Shown one piece after another: positions 43,738 through 52,072 of a stretch of DNA of 64,000 bases. The stretch is taken from positions 62,001 to 126,000 of the forward strand of contig NZ_VEGH01000010.1 in assembly GCF_007679345.1 (NCBI RefSeq), in the 5' to 3' direction. Both the position numbers and the translations under genes were made by a program. A model generated the notes under the pieces. That model had not been told where the DNA came from. It searched no databases and saw only the letters and a list, made by a program, of their open reading frames with translations. Within the stretch, counting starts at the first letter, position 1; every line of letters begins with the position of its first letter. The DNA is from Cellulosimicrobium cellulans (lineage in GTDB: Bacteria; Actinomycetota; Actinomycetes; Actinomycetales; Cellulomonadaceae).

Positions 43738-45425
43738 GTCAGCCCCTTGATCACGGCCAGCCGCAGCCGCAGCGTCGACGCGGCGTCCGGTGCGAGCGCC
43801 GGGCGGTCCAGCACGGCGGCGGCCGCGTCCCGCTCGCGACCCGCCTGGTCGGCGGCGTGCTGCGCGAGCCGGTCGCGCAGCGTCCCCGCCACGGCGGTGC
43901 CGCGCTCGCCGAGCAGGTCGACCAGCATCCGGTCGGCCGCCTCCAGCCCGGCGGCCGACGCCAGCGCCAGCGCGGCCAGCCCCTCGTCGCCGAGGGCGCG
44001 CTGCGCGGCGGCGGCCCGCTTGGCGGCCTTGGCGGCGACGCGCTTCGCGGTGCGGTCGTCGCCCGCCGGGGCGGGGGTCGCCGGGTCGGCGGTCAGCACC
44101 TCGACCGCCCCGCCGACCCAGTCCCGGGCGGCGCGCTCGACCTCGCGCGGCCGGTCCGCGGCCCGGTCGGCGGCCGACCAGTCGCCCGCGAGGGTCGTCG
44201 CGCCCGCCGGGCCGGCGGCCAGGGCGTCGCGCAGCGCGGTCTCGGTCGCGGCGCCGACGGCCGACAGCGTCGAGGTCGCCGACGACACCAGGTCCTGCAC
44301 CAGCGGCATGACCGCCGCCGCGCGGTCCCGGCCGGCCCGGCGCGACCGGTCGACCCGCCCGCCGCCCTTCAGCACGTCCGCGAGCGCCGCGCCCGGCGCG
44401 GTCAGCTCGGTCCAGCGCGCCTGCACCGCGCCCTGCGCGACGGCGCCGCGCGTGATCGTGCGGCGCGCGTCCTCCGCCGGTGCGCGCACGGCGTCGTCGA
44501 GGGCCGTGCGCACCGCGGCCGCGGCCTCGGCCTGCCGGTCCACCGCGTCGACGAGCTCGTCCACCCACGGCCGCAACGCGGCGAACGACCCGCGCAGCGT
44601 CCGGGCGACGACGGTCCGCGCCCGGTCGGCACCGGCGAGCATGGTCAGCCAGCGGGTGATCGGCGCGACCAGCCCCGCGTCCATCAGCCCCTCGTGCGGC
44701 CCGAGGTCCGGCACCACGAACAGCGGCGAGCCCTGCATCCCGTGCGAGCGGAGCCGGTCCAGCAGGTCCCCGCGGACCGTCGGCAGCGACGCCGGGTCGA
44801 CGCGGTTGAGCACCATCGCCACGGACGCGCCGCGCTCGGTCGCGCCGGTGAGCACCCGCCAGGGCAGCGCATCGCCGTACCGGGCGGCAGTCGTGACGAA
44901 CAGCCACAGGTCGGCCGCCTCCAGCAGCCGGTGCGCCGAACGCCGGTTCGCCTCCTCCACGGAGTCGACGTCGGGCGCGTCCATCAGCGCGATGCCGCGC
45001 GGCACCCGCTCCGACGCCACGATCTCCACGGCGTCGGTCACGGGGTGCTCGCGCACCAGCTCCGCGTCGTCGGGGTGGTGCACCAGCACCGGGCGGCGCG
45101 TCGTCGGCCGCAGCACGCCGGCGGTGGTCACCTCGGTGCCCACCAGCGAGTTCACCAGCGTCGACTTGCCCGCCCCGGTCGACCCCGCGACCACGACGAT
45201 CGCCGGCGCGGACAGCTGCCGCAGCCGCGGCACCAGGTGGTCGGCGAGCTGGTCGACCAGCCGGGTCCGGGACGCCCGCGCGGCGCCCACGCCGGGCACC
45301 TCGAGCGGGAACTCGGTCGCCCGCACGTCGCGCAGGAGGTCGGTCAGGGCGTCGAGCAGGGACGTCGCGGCGAGCGGCCGGTCGAGGACATCCCGCGCCG
45401 CCGAGCTCTCCGCCTGCACGTTCAC
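43734..45425 (-). CDS. Dynamin-like GTPase (DynA-like, module B)
   Basis: A 563-residue protein when started at GTG 45425, which has GAGGAT (45432-45437) 6 nt upstream; a longer frame from 45497 lacks such support. GTPase motifs are AGSTGAGKS (80-88), RPTT (106-109), DAPD (149-152) and NRVD (207-210). The block DAPDVDSVEEANRR followed by ADLWLFVTTAARY is nearly identical in module A. Unlike that protein it has no evident membrane hairpin and no long Gly/Pro tail. Translationally coupled to the DynB-like gene. Confidence 0.75.
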   Translation of the reverse strand: MNVQAESSAARDVLDRPLAATSLLDALTDLLRDVRATEFPLEVPGVGAARASRTRLVDQLADHLVPRLRQLSAPAIVVVAGSTGAGKSTLVNSLVGTEVTTAGVLRPTTRRPVLVHHPDDAELVREHPVTDAVEIVASERVPRGIALMDAPDVDSVEEANRRSAHRLLEAADLWLFVTTAARYGDALPWRVLTGATERGASVAMVLNRVDPASLPTVRGDLLDRLRSHGMQGSPLFVVPDLGPHEGLMDAGLVAPITRWLTMLAGADRARTVVARTLRGSFAALRPWVDELVDAVDRQAEAAAAVRTALDDAVRAPAEDARRTITRGAVAQGAVQARWTELTAPGAALADVLKGGGRVDRSRRAGRDRAAAVMPLVQDLVSSATSTLSAVGAATETALRDALAAGPAGATTLAGDWSAADRAADRPREVERAARDWVGGAVEVLTADPATPAPAGDDRTAKRVAAKAAKRAAAAQRALGDEGLAALALASAAGLEAADRMLVDLLGERGTAVAGTLRDRLAQHAADQAGRERDAAAAVLDRPALAPDAASTLRLRLAVIKGLT

Positions 45426-45529
45426 ACCGTCATCCTCTCGTGTGAACGGGGAGGCGGCCAAACGTCCGCGCCGTGTGACCTGCGACGACTTCGGCACGCG
45501 GGGCGCGGGGCCGGGTCACCGGTGGCGCG

Positions 45530-45535
45530 TACCCT
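45530..45535 (+). promoter_or_regulatory. -10 element upstream of tRNA-Arg
   Basis: TACCCT 40 bases before the tRNA. The -35 is not clear. Confidence 0.4.
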
Positions 45536-45575
45536 GGGTGCGCCGGTCGCGCGGCCCCGTGCGGCGCCCGGCGAC

Positions 45576-45648
45576 GCCTCCATAGCTCAATGGATAGAGC
45601 AACGGCCTTCTAATCCGTCGGTTGCAGGTTCGAGTCCTGCTGGGGGCA
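45576..45648 (+). tRNA. tRNA-Arg (TCT anticodon)
   Basis: A 73-nt cloverleaf. Acceptor GCCTCCA pairs with TGGGGGC (one G-T), D arm AGCTCAATGGATAGAGC, anticodon loop CTTCTAA with TCT, and T arm GCAGGTTCGAGTCCTGC. CCA is not encoded (ACCC follows). The anticodon stem has a C-T mismatch next to the loop, which I recall as common in actinobacterial versions. It reads the rare AGA codon and lies at the edge of a lower-G+C gene block. Confidence 0.95.
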
Positions 45649-45688
45649 CCCGGACGCTGCCGTTCGCTCGTTCCTCGAGCGCGGCGGC

Positions 45689-45716
45689 GCGGCCCTCGGT
45701 CCGGACCGAGGGCCGC
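45689..45716. terminator. Loop-less 28-bp palindrome between tRNA-Arg and the guanidino operon
   Basis: GCGGCCCTCGGTCC (45689-45702) is followed directly by its reverse complement (45703-45716). It lies 40 bases after the tRNA and 7 bases before the amidinotransferase stop, between convergent units, so it can terminate both. Confidence 0.8.
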
Positions 45717-45722
45717 GTCCGT

Positions 45723-46853
45723 CTACCGCGTGTAGTCCTGCGGCCCGCCGTCGCGGGTGAGGTCGAGCGTGACGCAGTGGAACCCGCCACCCAGGGTCCG
45801 GGCGTGCCGGAGCCGCAACGGGATCACGTCGATGCCGTGGCGCTCGAGAGCGCGCACCAGCGCCGGATGGGTCGCGTCCACCACCGCGAGGTCGGTGTCG
45901 ACCATGAGCAGGTTCATGCTGATCCACGGTGAGCTCAGGTCGAACGGGTTCACCGAACCCGGCGCGGGTTCCGGGCACCAGACGACCTCCCAGCCGTCGA
46001 AACAGCGGGGCACCGTCTCCGGCGTGACGCGTCGCGGGTTGAGAAGGACCAGCCCCGGGCGCAGCAACGCGATCGTGCTGTCGATGTGGGTCCCCGCGTA
46101 CATATTTCTCAGCGGATGCACCCGGATTCCCTCGCCGAGGAGCCCCAGGAGAGACCGGAGCCACCGCAGACCGCGCTCGTTGCCGCTCCCGGAGACCTGG
46201 TAGAGCAGGTCCCGACCGAGGCGCAGGACGTTCGCGGCTTCGAACAGCGGTTCGTGGTCCGCCAGGCGGACCCGACCGCGCCCGTCCTCGAGGTACGTCG
46301 ACTCCTCCAGCCGAGGCTGCGGCATCGCCAGCCACTGCCCCCCGGCCGTCAGCACACCGTCCACGAGGTGGCGCAGCGCGAACGACTCGAAATACCGCGC
46401 TCGCGTCGGGCTCGCGGTCTCGACGACGGTGGGACCCAGCACGAGCGCCACATCGCGGGGGCAGTACGCGTACATCCCTGTGCTCTGCCATCCCGGTGCG
46501 CCGAACGGCGCGGCGTCGGCGCCCCCTTGCGCGCGATGCACCGTCACGTCGAGGCCCTCGAGCACCCGAACCAGCTCACCGAGGTCTTCCTCGGTCTCAC
46601 CGATCACGCGCGAGGACACCGGTCCGGCCGGAGCACCGGCTGCCCGGGCCCGAGGTAGCTCCGGGTACAGGTTGAGCCAGGCGGACGAGTCGGCCGCTGA
46701 GGGGATCGTCGCCCCGGTCGCCGTGCCGACCACGACCTCACGCAGACGGGTGAACTCGTCCCAGCTGCCGATCGGGACCCGCGACACCGCCCGCCAGGCG
46801 GGGTCCGACCCTGGCGCCGACGTGGTGTGGTGCGTGGCAGGGATGTCCGCCAC
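45723..46853 (-). CDS. StrB1/AGAT-type amidinotransferase
   Basis: A 376-residue enzyme of the glycine/inosamine amidinotransferase fold, which moves the amidino group of arginine to an amine through a cysteine adduct. Key blocks: FEAANVLRLGRDLLYQVSGSGNE (about 205-226), AGTHIDST with H256 and D258, SSPWISMNLLMVD, and GGGFHC with nucleophile C360. The ANVLR..DLLY.VS.SGNE pattern is closer, from memory, to StrB1 (streptomycin) than to glycine amidinotransferase. The GTG start lies 5 bases after the ligase stop, so it is the last gene of a three-gene operon. Lower G+C than surroundings. The acceptor amine is unknown. Confidence 0.85.
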   Translation of the reverse strand: MADIPATHHTTSAPGSDPAWRAVSRVPIGSWDEFTRLREVVVGTATGATIPSAADSSAWLNLYPELPRARAAGAPAGPVSSRVIGETEEDLGELVRVLEGLDVTVHRAQGGADAAPFGAPGWQSTGMYAYCPRDVALVLGPTVVETASPTRARYFESFALRHLVDGVLTAGGQWLAMPQPRLEESTYLEDGRGRVRLADHEPLFEAANVLRLGRDLLYQVSGSGNERGLRWLRSLLGLLGEGIRVHPLRNMYAGTHIDSTIALLRPGLVLLNPRRVTPETVPRCFDGWEVVWCPEPAPGSVNPFDLSSPWISMNLLMVDTDLAVVDATHPALVRALERHGIDVIPLRLRHARTLGGGFHCVTLDLTRDGGPQDYTR

Positions 46854-46857
46854 CGCG

Positions 46858-48183
46858 TCAGTCCTCGACTGCCAGGGCGAGCACACGCGACTCCAGCGCG
46901 CGTGCGGCGGCAGAGGTCGCAGCGACGGCGCAGTACATGACCGCCCCGGTGACGTCGACGTAGTTCGCCGTCAGCACGACTCCCTCGCCCGTGGCTCGGT
47001 CGAAGGCGAGCCCGCTGCGCTCGAGAGCCGCGACGGCGGCCGGGAAAGAGCGCACGGGCCAGGAGTCACGCTCCAAGAGCGTGCGCGCGTCGCTGCGCTG
47101 CGGGCCGAGCATCCGGTCCCGGAGCACGGTGTGCAGATGGGTCGACCCTGTGACGCGACCGTTGGTCTCGGTGAACAGCAGCTCGCCGTCGGGCGTCGCG
47201 ATCGCGTCGGCGCTGACACGCCCGCGGTAGCCCAGGGCGCGGAACGTGTCGCAGATCCGGCGCCCCTCGCGGACGAGCTCGTCGTGCAGCTCGCTGCGGA
47301 GCGACGGGGGCGGGACCACTTCGCCGGCAGCAACGGGTTCCATGAGGATCTCGCCGGTACCCGACAGCTCCGACGCGGCGTCGGTGACCTCGAACTCGGC
47401 GTAGACGGTCGTGCAGTCGGTGAAGAACCGCTCGATGACCACCCGGCTCTCGCCACCCGCGGTCATCCAGTCCCAGGTCGAGCCCAGGTACTCGGCGACG
47501 GCCTCGGAATCGGGGAGGACCGTGACCTCAGCGGCACCCGAAGGACGCACGCCGTCGTGCGGAGCCACGATCGTGTTGCCGAAGCCGCCACCGGCGTACT
47601 CCTGCTTGATCATCGCGGGATGCCCCTGCCCGAGGATGCGACGCAGTGTCGACAGCGCCCGCGCCGGGTCCGCGGTGACGACGCCCGGCGCGATCGTCAG
47701 TCCGATGCCGGTGGCAACCGCGCGGAACACGGCCTTGCTGTTCACCAGCGCGACGCCCCCCTGCGCACTGAACGCGTACCCGGCCAGCGCTTCCTGGACG
47801 CCGAGCGTCTCGCAGAGCTCCACCACGGCCTGGTCGTCGAAGCACGTCACGACCCGCTCGACGTCTTCGCCGACGATGGCGGCCCGCAGCTCGGAGATGA
47901 GCACGGGATCAGCCAGCCGGTCGGGCGTCAGCAGATCCGTACCCAACGCCCCCGCTGGCGGGACGAGGATCGTCAGGCTTCGCGGGTCGGTGCCGGTCAT
48001 CGAGGTGACGTACTCGAGCAGGTACGACGGGGGTCGCCACGGGAGCACGACGACATCCGAGTCCTGCGCGAACCACAGCATGCGCTGGGCGCCCCAGGCG
48101 CCACCCTTTCGCGCTCTCTCGGAGAGTCGGGACAGGTCGCCCACCATCTCCACGGTCCGGCTGTTGCCGATGATGATCTTCAC
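46858..48183 (-). CDS. PGM1-like pre-ATP-grasp peptide/amide ligase
   Basis: A 441-residue ATP-grasp ligase. A pre-ATP-grasp region (about 1-145) has GNSRTVEMVGDLSRLS and GAQRMLWFA; then come ALVNSKAVFR (145-154), MIKQEYAGGGFGN (191-203) with the ATP-binding Lys and glycine loop, and GRVSADAI..ELLFTETNGRVTGSTH (321-349) with metal-binding Glu and Asn. This architecture matches, from memory, PGM1 of pheganomycin biosynthesis, which couples a guanidino acid to peptides. GTG 48183 overlaps the exporter stop (GTGA) and has AAGGAG 5 nt upstream. With an amidinotransferase next door, ligation of a guanidino acid is a strong inference; the amine partner is unknown. Confidence 0.8.
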   Translation of the reverse strand: MKIIIGNSRTVEMVGDLSRLSERARKGGAWGAQRMLWFAQDSDVVVLPWRPPSYLLEYVTSMTGTDPRSLTILVPPAGALGTDLLTPDRLADPVLISELRAAIVGEDVERVVTCFDDQAVVELCETLGVQEALAGYAFSAQGGVALVNSKAVFRAVATGIGLTIAPGVVTADPARALSTLRRILGQGHPAMIKQEYAGGGFGNTIVAPHDGVRPSGAAEVTVLPDSEAVAEYLGSTWDWMTAGGESRVVIERFFTDCTTVYAEFEVTDAASELSGTGEILMEPVAAGEVVPPPSLRSELHDELVREGRRICDTFRALGYRGRVSADAIATPDGELLFTETNGRVTGSTHLHTVLRDRMLGPQRSDARTLLERDSWPVRSFPAAVAALERSGLAFDRATGEGVVLTANYVDVTGAVMYCAVAATSAAARALESRVLALAVED

Positions 48184-49505
48184 GTCGCTCCTTCGTCGGT
48201 GCTGGTGATTCCTTGGCGTCGTGCGGGCGTTGTCCTGGAGGGCCGCGTCCCGACGGCCAGAGCTCCCACCGAGGCGATCGCGACGATCGCCCCGGCGCAG
48301 ACGAGGAGCGTCAGCCGAGCCCCGAGGCCGGCGATGAGCGGGGCGGCGAGCAGCGCGCCCGCCGGCTGGGCGAACGTCTGCAGGGCTGTGCGTGCCGCGA
48401 GCACGGCGGCGAGGTCGCCGTGCGGCGCCGTCCGCTGGAAGTAGGCGGTCGTCGTCGAGGGGAACGGGCCCCAGAACACGCCCGCGACCGCGAACGACAC
48501 CCAGCCCCACACCGGCGCGACCCCCGCCCCGAGGGGGAGCAGGAACACCCCGACGCCGAGCACGCTCAGCAGGCTGGTGGGCAACAACGGCCAGCGTCGC
48601 AGGTACCCGGCGGCCGCTGCGCCGAGGAACCCTCCGATGCCGAAGCCCGTCAGGTACCCCGCGAGCGTGCCGGCGTCGGCGCCGAGGTCCTGGCGCACGT
48701 ACACGGTCAGCGCGACGGCGACCGGGCCGAAGCACAGGAAGAACGCGAACGAGACGGCGACCAACGCGCTCAGCGACCGGTCCGAGCCGATCGCTCCGAA
48801 CCCGGTGCCCCGGGACGGGACGCGTCCCGCAGGACGAGCACGGAGGCGAGCGGGGACGAGGAACCGGAACACCAGGGCCAGCACCGCGAACGTCAACGCG
48901 TCGATCCCGATGACGATGCTCGGGTCGGCCAGCGTCAGCAGCAGCGCCGCGAGCGGGGGCCCCGCGACGTACGCGAGCTCGAGCACGATGTTGATGAGGG
49001 CGTTGCCTGCCAGGTGGTGCTCCTGCGGAACCGCGTCCGCGAGGAGGACGTACCGGCCGGACTTGCCCCAGGCGTTGAGCAGCGAGGAACCCGCGAGGAG
49101 GGCGACGAGCACCTCGATGCTGAGCCCGCCGGTCGCCGCGAGCACCGGGACGGCGAGCAGGAATGCCGCGCGCAGCGTGGCGTCCCAGACCGCGAGCTGC
49201 GCACCAGCACGTCCCGTGAGCCAGCGCGCGAAGGCGAAGGCACCGATCGCGCCGGGCAGCGTGTAGGCAGCGGTGGCGACCGCCACCCAGGTGGCACCCT
49301 GCTCGACGGGCGCGATCTCCAGCGCCAGCCAGCCGATCGCGACCGCGCTCAGCCCGTCACCGATGCTGGACAGACCGATGCCCGCGAGCACCCGGCGCAG
49401 GAAGCGCACCCCCAGCACGGGCCGGTACGGCGACCTGAGCACGAGGCCGGGGACCCGGGCCCGGGGACGCGCGCGGGCATCCTCGCGTGCGACGTCATCG
49501 GGCAT
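48180..49505 (-). CDS. MFS exporter of the guanidino-ligase operon
   Basis: A 441-residue major facilitator with about 12 helices, of the MFS_3/enterobactin-exporter-like type (GLSSIGDGLSAVAIGWLALEI; AYTLPGAIGAF; TTTAYFQRTAPHGDLAAVLAAR). It is the first gene of the operon and its TGA overlaps the ligase GTG. It probably exports the product or gives self-protection. ATG 49505 has GAGTGT 7 nt upstream, so it is leaderless; GTG 49514 is an alternative. Lower G+C than its neighbours. Confidence 0.8.
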   Translation of the reverse strand: MPDDVAREDARARPRARVPGLVLRSPYRPVLGVRFLRRVLAGIGLSSIGDGLSAVAIGWLALEIAPVEQGATWVAVATAAYTLPGAIGAFAFARWLTGRAGAQLAVWDATLRAAFLLAVPVLAATGGLSIEVLVALLAGSSLLNAWGKSGRYVLLADAVPQEHHLAGNALINIVLELAYVAGPPLAALLLTLADPSIVIGIDALTFAVLALVFRFLVPARLRARPAGRVPSRGTGFGAIGSDRSLSALVAVSFAFFLCFGPVAVALTVYVRQDLGADAGTLAGYLTGFGIGGFLGAAAAGYLRRWPLLPTSLLSVLGVGVFLLPLGAGVAPVWGWVSFAVAGVFWGPFPSTTTAYFQRTAPHGDLAAVLAARTALQTFAQPAGALLAAPLIAGLGARLTLLVCAGAIVAIASVGALAVGTRPSRTTPARRQGITSTDEGAT

Positions 49506-49676
49506 GCCACCCACACTCGCAGCCGGGTGACCGACGGAACGGCCGATCGACCGGCTGTCCTGTCGTCGCCGGCGAGAACTGCCCCGCGCAGACCGGCTCG
49601 GAAGGGACGAACGTCCTCCATCTGCCGTCCGCGCGCCGCCGATCGTCCTGACCCCCGCGACCGGGGTTCACTGGAT

Positions 49677-49714
49677 CGTTCTGCCCGACACGCCCCGGCG
49701 TGTCGGGCAGAACG
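49677..49714 (-). terminator. Terminator of the GH3/ABC operon; 18-bp perfect hairpin
   Basis: Arms CGTTCTGCCCGACACGCC (49677-49694) and complement (49697-49714) with only 2 bases between, 15 bases past the GH3 stop on the minus strand. It also marks the upstream edge of the guanidino operon. The 170 bases between it and the exporter start hold no precursor-like peptide gene that I can support. Confidence 0.85.
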
Positions 49715-49729
49715 CTCCACCGAACTACC

Positions 49730-52072
49730 TCAGCGCACCTCGAACGCCGCCCGCAGCAGGTCCGCGTCCCGCGAGGAGCGGCCGACCAGCACGTCGAACC
49801 GCCCCGGCTCCACGACCCGCCGCCCGGCGGCGTCGACGATCGTGCAGTCCGCCACGGCCAGGTCCACGGTCACCTCGACCGACGACCCGGGCGCGACGTC
49901 CGCCTGCGCGTACGCCTTGAGCTCCTTGTCCGCCCAGGACACCGAGGTCACCGCGTCCGAGACGTAGAGCTGCACGGTCTCCCGCGCCGGCCGCGTCCCG
50001 GTGTTGGTCAGCGTCACGGTCGCCCGCACGGTGTCCCCCACCGCCGCCACCGACCGGTCGAGCCGCAGGTCCGCGTACTCGACGGTGGTGTACGACAGCC
50101 CCTCGCCGAACACGAACGCCGGCTCCTGGGTGAGGTCGGCGTACCGGTCGCCGTGCTGGCCGCGGATCTGGTTGTAGTACGTCGGCTGCTGCCCGGCGTG
50201 CCGGGCGAACGAGATCGGCAGCCGCCCGGACGGCTCGGTGAGCCCGAGCAGCACCTCGGCGACCGCCTGCCCGCCCTGCATGCCCGGGTTCGCGACCCAG
50301 AGCACCGCGTCGGCCGACGCGACCGACGGCGGCAGCACCAGCGGCTTGGACGCCAACAGCACCACGACCAGCGGCTTGCCGGTGGCGGCGAGCGCGTCGA
50401 GCAGCGCGACCTGCCCGCCGACCAGCTCGAGCGTCGCCGTCGACCGGCCCTCGCCCACGAGCTGGATCTGGTCGCCCACGACGGCCACCACGTAGTCCGC
50501 GTCCTCGGCGGCGGCCACGGCGTCGGCGACGAGCGCCGCGTCGGGCGGGCACGGAACGCCGATCTTCGGCCGCGGCTGGCCGTCCGGGTAGAGCTCTCCC
50601 GCCGGGTCCGGCACCAGGTCGAGGATGTCGGCGCCCCGGCTGTGCGACACGGCCCAGCCGACGGGCGCCGCGGCCCGCAGGCCGTCGAGGATCGTGACGA
50701 TCATGTCCCGCGGGTGCCCGTCGGGCAGCCAGTCGGCCTGGCCGGAGTTGCCGGCCCAGTCGCCGAGGTGCGCCTCGTGGTCATCCGCGAGCGGGCCCAC
50801 GACCGCCACGCGGCGCGGGGTGTCGTCGCCCCCCGAGGCCCGCAGCGCCCCGGGCGCCGGGACCCCGCCGCCGTCGGCCGCCCGCGCGGCGGCCCCCGGC
50901 ACCCCCGCGAACCCGCCCGCCAGGGGCAGCACACCGGAGTTCCGCAGCAGCACCAGCGAGCGCCGCGCGACGTCGAGGTTGAGGTCCGCGTGCTCCGCCG
51001 CCCCCACGACGGTCGCCTGCGCCGAGGCGGACGGCCGGCGCGGGTCCTCGAACAGCCCCAGCCGGAACTTCAGCGTGAGGATGCGGCTCACGGCGGCGTC
51101 CAGCTCGGCCTCCGCGAGCAGCCCGGACTCGATGGCCTCGAGCGCCCCGGCGAAGAAGCCCGGCGTCGTCATGACCATGTCGTTGCCCGCCTTGACCGCG
51201 GCCGCGGCGGCGTGCGCGTAGTCGGGCTGGACCTTCTGCTCCCAGACCATGCGGCCGACGTTGTCCCAGTCGGTGATGAGGGTGCCGGTGTAGCCCCACT
51301 CGCCGCGGAGCACGTCGTTCAGCAGCCAGTCGTTGACCGTGATCGGCACGCCGTCCATCGTCTGGTAGCCCAGCATGAACGTGGCGCAGCCCTCGCGGGC
51401 GACCCGCTCGAACGGCGGCAGGAACCAGGACCGGAGCTTGCGCCGCGAGATGTCCGCCTCGGACGCGTCACGCCCGCCCTGGGTCTCGGAGTACCCCGCG
51501 AAGTGCTTGGCGGTCGCGAGGATCGCCGTGGGGTCGTCCAGGCCGGTGCCCTGGTAGCCGCGGACCATCGCGGAGGCGAGCTCGCCGATGAGGAACGGGT
51601 CCTCGCCGAACGTCTCGTCCACGCGGCCCCAGCGCAGGTCGCGGGCGATGCAGAGCACCGGGCTGAACGTCCAGTGCACGCCGGTGGTGGCGACCTCGCG
51701 GGCCGTGACCCGGGCGACCTGCTCGACGAGGTCGACGTCCCAGGACGCCGCCATGCCGAGCTGGGTCGGGAAGATCGTCGACCCCACGAAGAACGAGTGC
51801 CCGTGGATGCAGTCCTCGCCGACCAGCAGCGGGATGCGCAGCCGGGTCTCGGCCGTCAGGTCGTGGGCGTGCGCCAGCCGCTCGGGCGACGCGTGCAGGA
51901 TCGACCCCACGTGCTTGTGCAGGATGTCGTCCGCGTAGTCGCCCCGGGCGTCGAGCTGGAGCATCTGCCCGACCTTCTCCTCGACGGTCATCCGGGCGAG
52001 CAGGTCCTGCACGCGGTCGGCGACGGGGAGGCCGGCGTCGAGGTAGCGGGCGTCGAGGGACGTGGCGTTCAT
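49730..52072 (-). CDS. Glycoside hydrolase family 3 beta-glucosidase/xylosidase-type enzyme
   Basis: A 780-residue GH3 enzyme of BglX layout: the N-terminal barrel (LPVADRVQDLLARMTVEEKVGQM; KHFAGYSETQGGRD) with nucleophile Asp in LITDWDNV, the C-terminal sandwich domain and a fibronectin-like domain ending at the stop. No signal peptide, so it acts in the cytoplasm on imported oligosaccharides. Its ATG overlaps the stop of the ABC permease gene. A low-complexity Ala/Gly insert (GGFAGVPGAAARAADGGG) interrupts the sandwich domain. Sugar specificity (gluco- or xylo-) is not decided. Confidence 0.88.
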   Translation of the reverse strand: MNATSLDARYLDAGLPVADRVQDLLARMTVEEKVGQMLQLDARGDYADDILHKHVGSILHASPERLAHAHDLTAETRLRIPLLVGEDCIHGHSFFVGSTIFPTQLGMAASWDVDLVEQVARVTAREVATTGVHWTFSPVLCIARDLRWGRVDETFGEDPFLIGELASAMVRGYQGTGLDDPTAILATAKHFAGYSETQGGRDASEADISRRKLRSWFLPPFERVAREGCATFMLGYQTMDGVPITVNDWLLNDVLRGEWGYTGTLITDWDNVGRMVWEQKVQPDYAHAAAAAVKAGNDMVMTTPGFFAGALEAIESGLLAEAELDAAVSRILTLKFRLGLFEDPRRPSASAQATVVGAAEHADLNLDVARRSLVLLRNSGVLPLAGGFAGVPGAAARAADGGGVPAPGALRASGGDDTPRRVAVVGPLADDHEAHLGDWAGNSGQADWLPDGHPRDMIVTILDGLRAAAPVGWAVSHSRGADILDLVPDPAGELYPDGQPRPKIGVPCPPDAALVADAVAAAEDADYVVAVVGDQIQLVGEGRSTATLELVGGQVALLDALAATGKPLVVVLLASKPLVLPPSVASADAVLWVANPGMQGGQAVAEVLLGLTEPSGRLPISFARHAGQQPTYYNQIRGQHGDRYADLTQEPAFVFGEGLSYTTVEYADLRLDRSVAAVGDTVRATVTLTNTGTRPARETVQLYVSDAVTSVSWADKELKAYAQADVAPGSSVEVTVDLAVADCTIVDAAGRRVVEPGRFDVLVGRSSRDADLLRAAFEVR

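Follow-up and report, generated by a model that had tools for sequence, protein, structure and literature searches.

A stand-alone transporter, ligase and amidinotransferase cassette of actinobacteria with probable kinship to the ketomemicin pathway

Background

The ketomemicin pathway is described with six named genes, ktmA to ktmF. Its product ketomemicin C-418 is similar to a Val-Leu-Phe peptide in which the N-terminal valine bears a guanidine and one amide is replaced by a ketomethylene; analogues start with isoleucine or leucine (PMC11943689; papers given by PMC number are cited here for parts of their text). The present work concerns a cassette of three genes, encoding a major facilitator superfamily (MFS) transporter, a PGM1-type ligase and an amidinotransferase (AT), which judging by sequence most likely shares ancestry with this pathway. 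The cassette lies in a 64,000-nucleotide stretch, in the following called the window, which covers positions 62001-126000 of contig NZ_VEGH01000010.1 in a 4.58-Mb genome congeneric with Cellulomonas hominis CS1. On balance, we favour the reading that the cassette is self-contained, moves horizontally and would make and export a short N-terminally amidinated peptide.

The same three functions are found together within two larger clusters. The thiovarsolin genes varL, varP and varS comprise a ligase, an MFS protein and an amidinotransferase and, unlike the genes of the window, sit in a YcaO/TfuA cluster. Their deletion left production unchanged, and the authors suggest that thiovarsolins are possibly not the final products (PMC6511847). 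The ligase and AT of a Streptomyces varsoviensis locus (L049), presumed to be VarL and VarS, fall with the pheganomycin type, unlike those of the window. The pseudouridimycin genes sapE, sapF and sapG (pumL, pumM and pumN) encode a transporter, an amide ligase and an AT, listed in the same order as in the window, and here too the ligase couples a guanidino acid to an amine; unlike the cassette they are embedded in a C-nucleoside pathway, and the likeness noted here is one of gene functions and listed order (PMC6586884). A stand-alone ligase/AT/MFS cassette was not found described in the open literature searched, most subscription papers being beyond that search. An earlier note on this DNA stated that no system with only these three genes had been described; this holds for the stand-alone cassette in the open literature, while the trio of functions itself is known from the two larger clusters.

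Protein families and phylogeny

The three genes are open, co-directional on the minus strand and tightly packed in an operon-like manner, in the order MFS, ligase, AT. The ligase matched the Pfam domains PreAtp-grasp (PF18604, 4.1e-25) and PGM1_C (PF18105, 1.6e-14), both above the curated cut-offs, and its best match in PDB was PGM1 (3wvq, 4.9e-100), followed by the other solved relative 8ynd (7.3e-32). Residues E339, N341 and R343 were invariant among six aligned ligases. For the AT, the best match in PDB was StrB1 (1bwd, 9e-91), followed by SxtG, AGAT and HsvA (5.8e-52 to 9.5e-48). The MFS protein matched MFS_1 of Pfam (1e-17) as well as TIGR00900 (2e-28), the latter below its curated cut-off. 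Hence the ligase falls inside the PGM1 family and the AT is of the StrB1 type, both as proposed in the earlier note.

A scan of a genome collection yielded 61 loci with a PGM1-type ligase. Eight of these (L033, L035, L037, L040, L041, L047, L071 and L082) encoded a relative of each of the six ktm products in a stretch of 12 kb, i.e. an aldolase, an alpha-oxoamine-synthase-like pyridoxal phosphate enzyme, a MaoC dehydratase, the ligase, the AT and a zinc-binding dehydrogenase (families as read in L035). These loci are called ktm-type by their gene content, after the ktm list in PMC11943689, and not via characterised KtmD or KtmE sequences. The strain of L040 has been reported to carry ketomemicin-like genes (PMC7317104). 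None of the eight loci had the window-type MFS gene; L037 and L041 have another MFS gene nearby.

A ligase tree was built from 42 of the 74 collected ligase rows. The ligases of eight loci with the stand-alone trio and of the eight ktm-type loci formed one set (16 rows, support 95/94), with the trio placed within the ktm branches, and 19 pheganomycin-type rows formed a separate set (100/97). We class the ligase, by sequence, as KtmD-type, kin to the ligases of the ktm-type loci. By the rule used for specificity columns, the trio and the four ktm ligases of the L033 type were separated at no ligase position; with the full set of eight ktm ligases, positions 168 and 420 alone satisfied the 75% rule. 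The AT of the window was 56-58% identical to the ATs of L033, L035, L047 and L082 and 29-35% identical to 24 pheganomycin-type ATs, and it grouped with the ATs of four ktm-type loci in the AT trees. The cassette shares its ligase clade with eight six-gene loci. Its AT can be put down as KtmE-type only tentatively: four of the eight loci carry an AT of this type and the other four a different one, and the catalytic Asp differs.

Pheganomycin and resorcinomycin had been taken as the nearest system in the earlier note. The pairing of a PGM1-family ligase with an amidinotransferase, on which that was based, stands and is common to those pathways; the nearest described system is instead ketomemicin, as seen from the ligase clade and the AT identities. 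In comparison with pheganomycin and resorcinomycin, the cassette has a ligase of another clade and an AT of another subfamily, and a linked precursor was not found. The trees of both enzymes and the ktm genes present in the loci led us to set the pheganomycin-like assignment aside; for the ligase it is not formally rejected (approximately unbiased test, p 0.112).

As a separate observation, ktm-type clusters hold two very different AT types, the window-like type in L033, L035, L047 and L082 and another in L037, L040, L041 and L071.

Distribution of the cassette

At E 1e-8, the ligase was found in four of 221 genomes of the family: its own, G043 (97%), Oerskovia douganii (G166, 50%) and G096 (34%). 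Larger samples, with the own genome counted, gave the ligase in 3 of 396 genomes of the order at E 1e-40 and the AT in 12 of 394 genomes of the class at E 1e-60, most of the other AT matches being not of the cassette kind. The window-type MFS, ligase and AT occurred together in five of the 61 loci, from C. hominis, Streptomyces sp. ODS25 (where the order is ligase-AT-MFS), Streptomonospora nanhaiensis, Planobispora takensis and Oerskovia douganii, and two further trio loci were obtained from genome searches (G771 and G992). Including the window, this makes eight trio loci spread over seven genera, and in each of them an MFS relative adjoins the ligase/AT pair. A conserved linkage of the two enzymes in other genomes, which had been named as a check of the earlier note, is thus seen in seven other loci.

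Relatives of KtmA, KtmB and KtmC were absent at E 1e-5 from the eight trio loci, searched for about 10 kb on each side where the contig permits and over the full 64 kb of the window. No KtmF relative was found beside the trio, and the 64 kb of the window were without KtmA, KtmB, KtmC and KtmF at the same threshold; L103 has a single match of 37% with the KtmF reference, more than 5 kb off, which was taken as a general dehydrogenase. The genome-wide search covered KtmB, while KtmA, KtmC and KtmF were looked for in locus DNA only. The KtmB query detected orthologues of 72-92% in three of three control genomes. In the trio genomes it detected nothing in three (G000, G043 and G166) and just 26-30% matches in the other five, which is the level expected for general enzymes of the superfamily; a close KtmB was thus not found in these eight genomes. 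Unlike the ketomemicin pathway, the cassette is therefore without KtmA, KtmB, KtmC and an adjoining KtmF, and has an MFS gene instead.

The neighbourhoods of five trio loci (L029-L032 and L034) shared no gene outside the trio, except for a weak 27% match between L032 and L034. The simple gene caller used for the neighbours overlooks some genes, e.g. the MFS gene of L029. There were no matches to DpgA or DpgC, i.e. no dpg (dihydroxyphenylglycine) genes as in pheganomycin and resorcinomycin, beside the trio in these five loci, the window itself not being searched with Dpg queries. This bears out the observation that the pair comes without scaffold genes.

Neither was a visible precursor peptide found, as had also been noted before. 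Small open reading frames within 400 bp upstream or downstream of the operon in the eight trio loci gave top scores of 46 and 46, compared with top scores of 43-47 and 47-57 in six shuffles each; the near-identical pair of the window and L029 was omitted from this comparison. A biarylitide-like pentapeptide reading frame within 1.5 kb was found in none of the eight.

Catalytic residues of the amidinotransferase

The catalytic triad of human AGAT is Asp254, His303 and Cys407 (PMC3684758, PMC2844391). In the AT of the window the triad His and Cys are retained, and Glu216 aligns with Asp254 (alignment to 1jdw). The residues H256, D258 and C360, described as intact in the earlier note (H267, D269 and C371 of our protein P0001), are all present; the triad is not intact, as its third member is this Glu216. 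The enzyme hence deviates from the catalytic Asp-His-Cys of the AGAT/StrB1 family, and from the ktm-type ATs nearest to it, in spite of strong family homology, and it is likely, from its sequence, to work as the amidinotransferases of that family do.

Glu was found at this position in all eight trio ATs (that of L032 taken in its own frame), and Asp in the four ktm-type ATs of the same type (L033, L035, L047 and L082). Among the 47 rows of the AT tree, 9 had Glu (seven trio ATs plus L104 and L113), 37 had Asp and 1 was unscored, the AT of L074 being outside the motif pattern. Since L104 and L113 also carry Glu, this residue is not unique to the trio. Between the seven trio ATs and those of L033, L035, L047 and L082, the triad position was the sole column uniform within each group yet differing between them. 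The Glu/Asp label required 4 changes on a tree built without that column (3-4 in bootstraps, with a shuffled mean of about 8.3), meaning that Glu has been gained or lost more than once.

Two loci outside the trio deserve mention here. L104 (9155-10261, genome G763) holds an orphan Glu-type AT, and L113 (7096-13466, genome G1067) a Glu-type AT overlapping a TauD dioxygenase gene, in the neighbourhood of genes for a condensation-domain protein and a class III aminotransferase; no PGM1-type ligase was found at E 1e-15 in either genome.

Insertion site and selection

Of 81 genomes in the genus, the own genome counted, 77 have a match to the left flank of the cassette (44700-45720). The site was compared in ten cassette-free relatives, four of which (G050, G076, G086 and G070) show an empty site beside tRNA-Arg. 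Here the end of the tRNA-Arg is followed, after 46, 114, 651 and 867 bases, respectively, by the gene end that the window has at about 49730. For the remaining six relatives, the short stretch compared yielded no right flank. The left flank of G086 is 99% identical to that of the window. Gain of the cassette is, going by these sites, a simpler reading than loss in the relatives. No words of at least 10 bases are shared between 45560-45759 and 49480-49759, and no attachment-site repeats were seen, so a tRNA-targeting integrase is not demonstrated.

Across the trio loci, pairwise identities of the ligase, the AT and the MFS protein rise and fall together (Pearson 0.68, 0.85 and 0.86, from 27 pairs that are not independent). 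Oerskovia has a cassette more similar to the one in Streptomonospora (ligase 68, AT 77 and MFS 64%) than to the one in the window (50, 58 and 48%), although the latter belongs to the same family. Nei-Gojobori ratios of nonsynonymous to synonymous substitution (dN/dS) between the window and C. hominis were 0.16 for the AT and 0.23 for the ligase, as expected under purifying selection. The recurrence of the trio in seven other loci, together with this selection, points to more than chance.

Proposed product and alternative explanations

We infer the substrates, acceptor, product and export, and likewise the direction of evolution and the effect of Glu, by comparison with the related systems. The AT would transfer the amidino group of arginine to the alpha-amine of an ordinary amino acid, as this is the reaction implied for KtmE by the ketomemicin structures. 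The PGM1/KtmD-type ligase would activate the carboxyl group of the resulting guanidino acid with ATP and link it to a free amino acid or a dipeptide via the amine of that acceptor, and the MFS protein would export the finished product. Three KtmE enzymes have reportedly been assayed in one study, and a Micromonospora ligase is said to couple amidino-arginine to dipeptides. As the four genes for the ketomethylene pseudodipeptide are missing, one would expect an amidino peptide whose amide bond is an ordinary one, and the acceptor would have to be another product of the cell: a single amino acid, a dipeptide or a peptide with its gene elsewhere. By analogy, the product is most likely an N-alpha-amidino-aminoacyl amino acid or peptide (a dipeptide).

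Several results weigh against this reading. The approximately unbiased test leaves a grouping of trio and pheganomycin ligases unrejected, monophyly of the trio is weak in the ligase tree (84/27, and 69/25 for the set with two Lentzea rows), and the trio does not form one group in the AT trees. The branch of the 24 pheganomycin-type ATs, with a length of about 2.5 changes per site, attaches within the trio/ktm part at an uncertain position, and four of the six-gene ktm loci carry an AT of that type. In Planobispora takensis the AT gene (L032, 11385-12460) is frameshifted in the assembly, through sequencing error or decay; this AT was omitted from the AT trees and only its 3' piece entered the identity table. 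Furthermore, Glu-type ATs occur without a ligase in G763 and G1067, and the AT could have a different chemistry owing to the conserved exchange of Asp for Glu.

The AT might instead make an omega-guanidino acid, or one derived from glycine such as guanidinoacetate, for the ligase to attach as a cap to an amine-bearing scaffold from elsewhere in the genome, as PumN and PumM do in pseudouridimycin. PumM attaches guanidinoacetate, and the listed gene order is the same (PMC6586884); the AT is nearer to StrB1 (307.8 bits) than to the glycine amidinotransferase AGAT (166-173 bits) and groups with ATs of ketomemicin-type loci, which makes this explanation unlikely. The tagging of a ribosomal peptide encoded elsewhere, in the manner of PGM1, would agree with the family of the ligase and with the Pgm1 homologues accompanied by tiny precursors in 47 biarylitide clusters (PMC13417212). 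We regard it as quite unlikely, given the small reading frames no better than shuffled controls within 400 bp of the operon, the missing pentapeptide frame within 1.5 kb and the lack of any peptide-modifying gene common to L029-L032 and L034 (simple gene caller).

Decay is another consideration, as partial ktm clusters with no detected product are described in 23 Salinispora genomes (PMC11943689) and one trio AT is frameshifted. That the trio is what a decaying ketomemicin cluster has left behind, without a product of its own, is nevertheless very improbable in view of the low dN/dS, the AT frame open in seven of the eight loci, the related MFS gene beside every pair and the scatter across seven genera at about 50% identity. 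The least probable of the explanations weighed here is that the AT has lost amidino transfer through the Asp-to-Glu change and performs another reaction of the superfamily, e.g. hydrolysis, so that the product is not amidinated. Asp254 is indeed a member of the triad (PMC3684758, PMC2844391) and is replaced in all eight cassettes, but Glu is a conservative replacement, and the catalytic His and Cys and many further positions are invariant among 18 aligned ATs.

Gene models and flanking features

Features of the locus are listed in Table 1. Three adjoining or overlapping genes, as described in the earlier note, are confirmed by the open reading frames, a 4-bp overlap of ligase start and MFS stop (48180-48183) and the start codons. 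The GTG start of the ligase is preceded by an AAGGAG-like site. Two start candidates were considered for the AT: GTG at 46886, which overlaps the ligase gene, and GTG at 46853, just beyond the ligase stop, with GAGG upstream as a better placed ribosome site. The residue numbers of the earlier note correspond to the latter. A glycoside hydrolase family 3 gene is located beyond the MFS gene.

Table 1. Features of the cassette and its flanks (window positions)
Feature	Position	Strand	Basis
MFS transporter, 441 aa, first gene of the operon, presumed exporter of the product	48180..49505	-	MFS_1; 8/8 trio loci
PGM1/KtmD-type ATP-grasp amide (peptide) ligase, 441 aa	46858..48183	-	PF18604, PF18105, 3wvq, tree
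StrB1-type, tentatively KtmE-type, arginine amidinotransferase	45723..46886, or from 46853	-	1bwd, trees, start codons
Codon GAA, Glu216 of P0001 (AT), at the position of AGAT Asp254	46239..46241	-	1jdw alignment
Codon of catalytic His267 of the AT (AGAT His303)	46086..46088	-	alignment
Codon of catalytic Cys371 of the AT (AGAT Cys407)	45774..45776	-	alignment
Perfect 15-bp inverted repeat directly past the AT stop, possible terminator	45688..45717	.	repeat search
29-bp inverted repeat, 90% complementary, between operon and glycoside hydrolase family 3 gene	49666..49725	.	repeat search
Approximate DNA absent at the empty sites of four relatives, tRNA-Arg 3' end to glycoside hydrolase family 3 gene	45652..49729	.	
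tRNA-Arg(TCT), adjoining the AT side of the cassette	45576..45650	+	

Other gene sets observed

Additional gene sets with related enzymes were seen during the searches. Five Streptomyces AT matches (G618, G706, G827, G882 and G928), considered in looking for pseudouridimycin genes, had no evident ligase among the called open reading frames within about 1.5 kb, as inspected by eye. On two actinobacterial plasmids a StrB1-type AT is found beside phosphotransferase genes, in L019 (4321-6549) within one coding sequence together with a class II tRNA-synthetase-like domain (PF00152), and in L020 (10001-11778) in two frames overlapping an annotated class II tRNA-synthetase-like gene; possibly this is another amidino-amide system with a synthetase-like ligase. 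A plasmid of the betaproteobacterium Robbsia andropogonis (L022, 2705-9053) carries five genes in a row whose annotations are SIS protein, SDR, PGM1-related ligase, aldehyde dehydrogenase and, lastly, an amidinotransferase for inosamine-phosphate. PhzE- or DAHP-synthase-like genes stand beside the PGM1-type ligase in 14 of the 61 loci (part of L052-L081, and L015 and L016), which suggests a different acid donor, presumably of the dihydro-hydroxyanthranilate type. Finally, in the genus of the window, L026 (7638-12611, G096) has a four-gene run of P450, pheganomycin-type AT, PGM1-type ligase (34%) and MFS genes.

Conclusion

We tentatively suggest, with rather less confidence than we place in the reading favoured above, that these loci represent a new minimal non-ribosomal class, in which N-alpha-amidino small peptides would be made by two enzymes and an exporter, mobile across actinobacteria and with Glu for Asp in the AT triad. 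If true, this would be among the smallest pathways to an amidino-capped peptide, easily expressed whole and tested. The cassette could also bear on the conserved ligase, transporter and amidinotransferase genes in thiovarsolin-like clusters, and the Glu-for-Asp change would offer a clean test of the role of the catalytic Asp in amidinotransferases.

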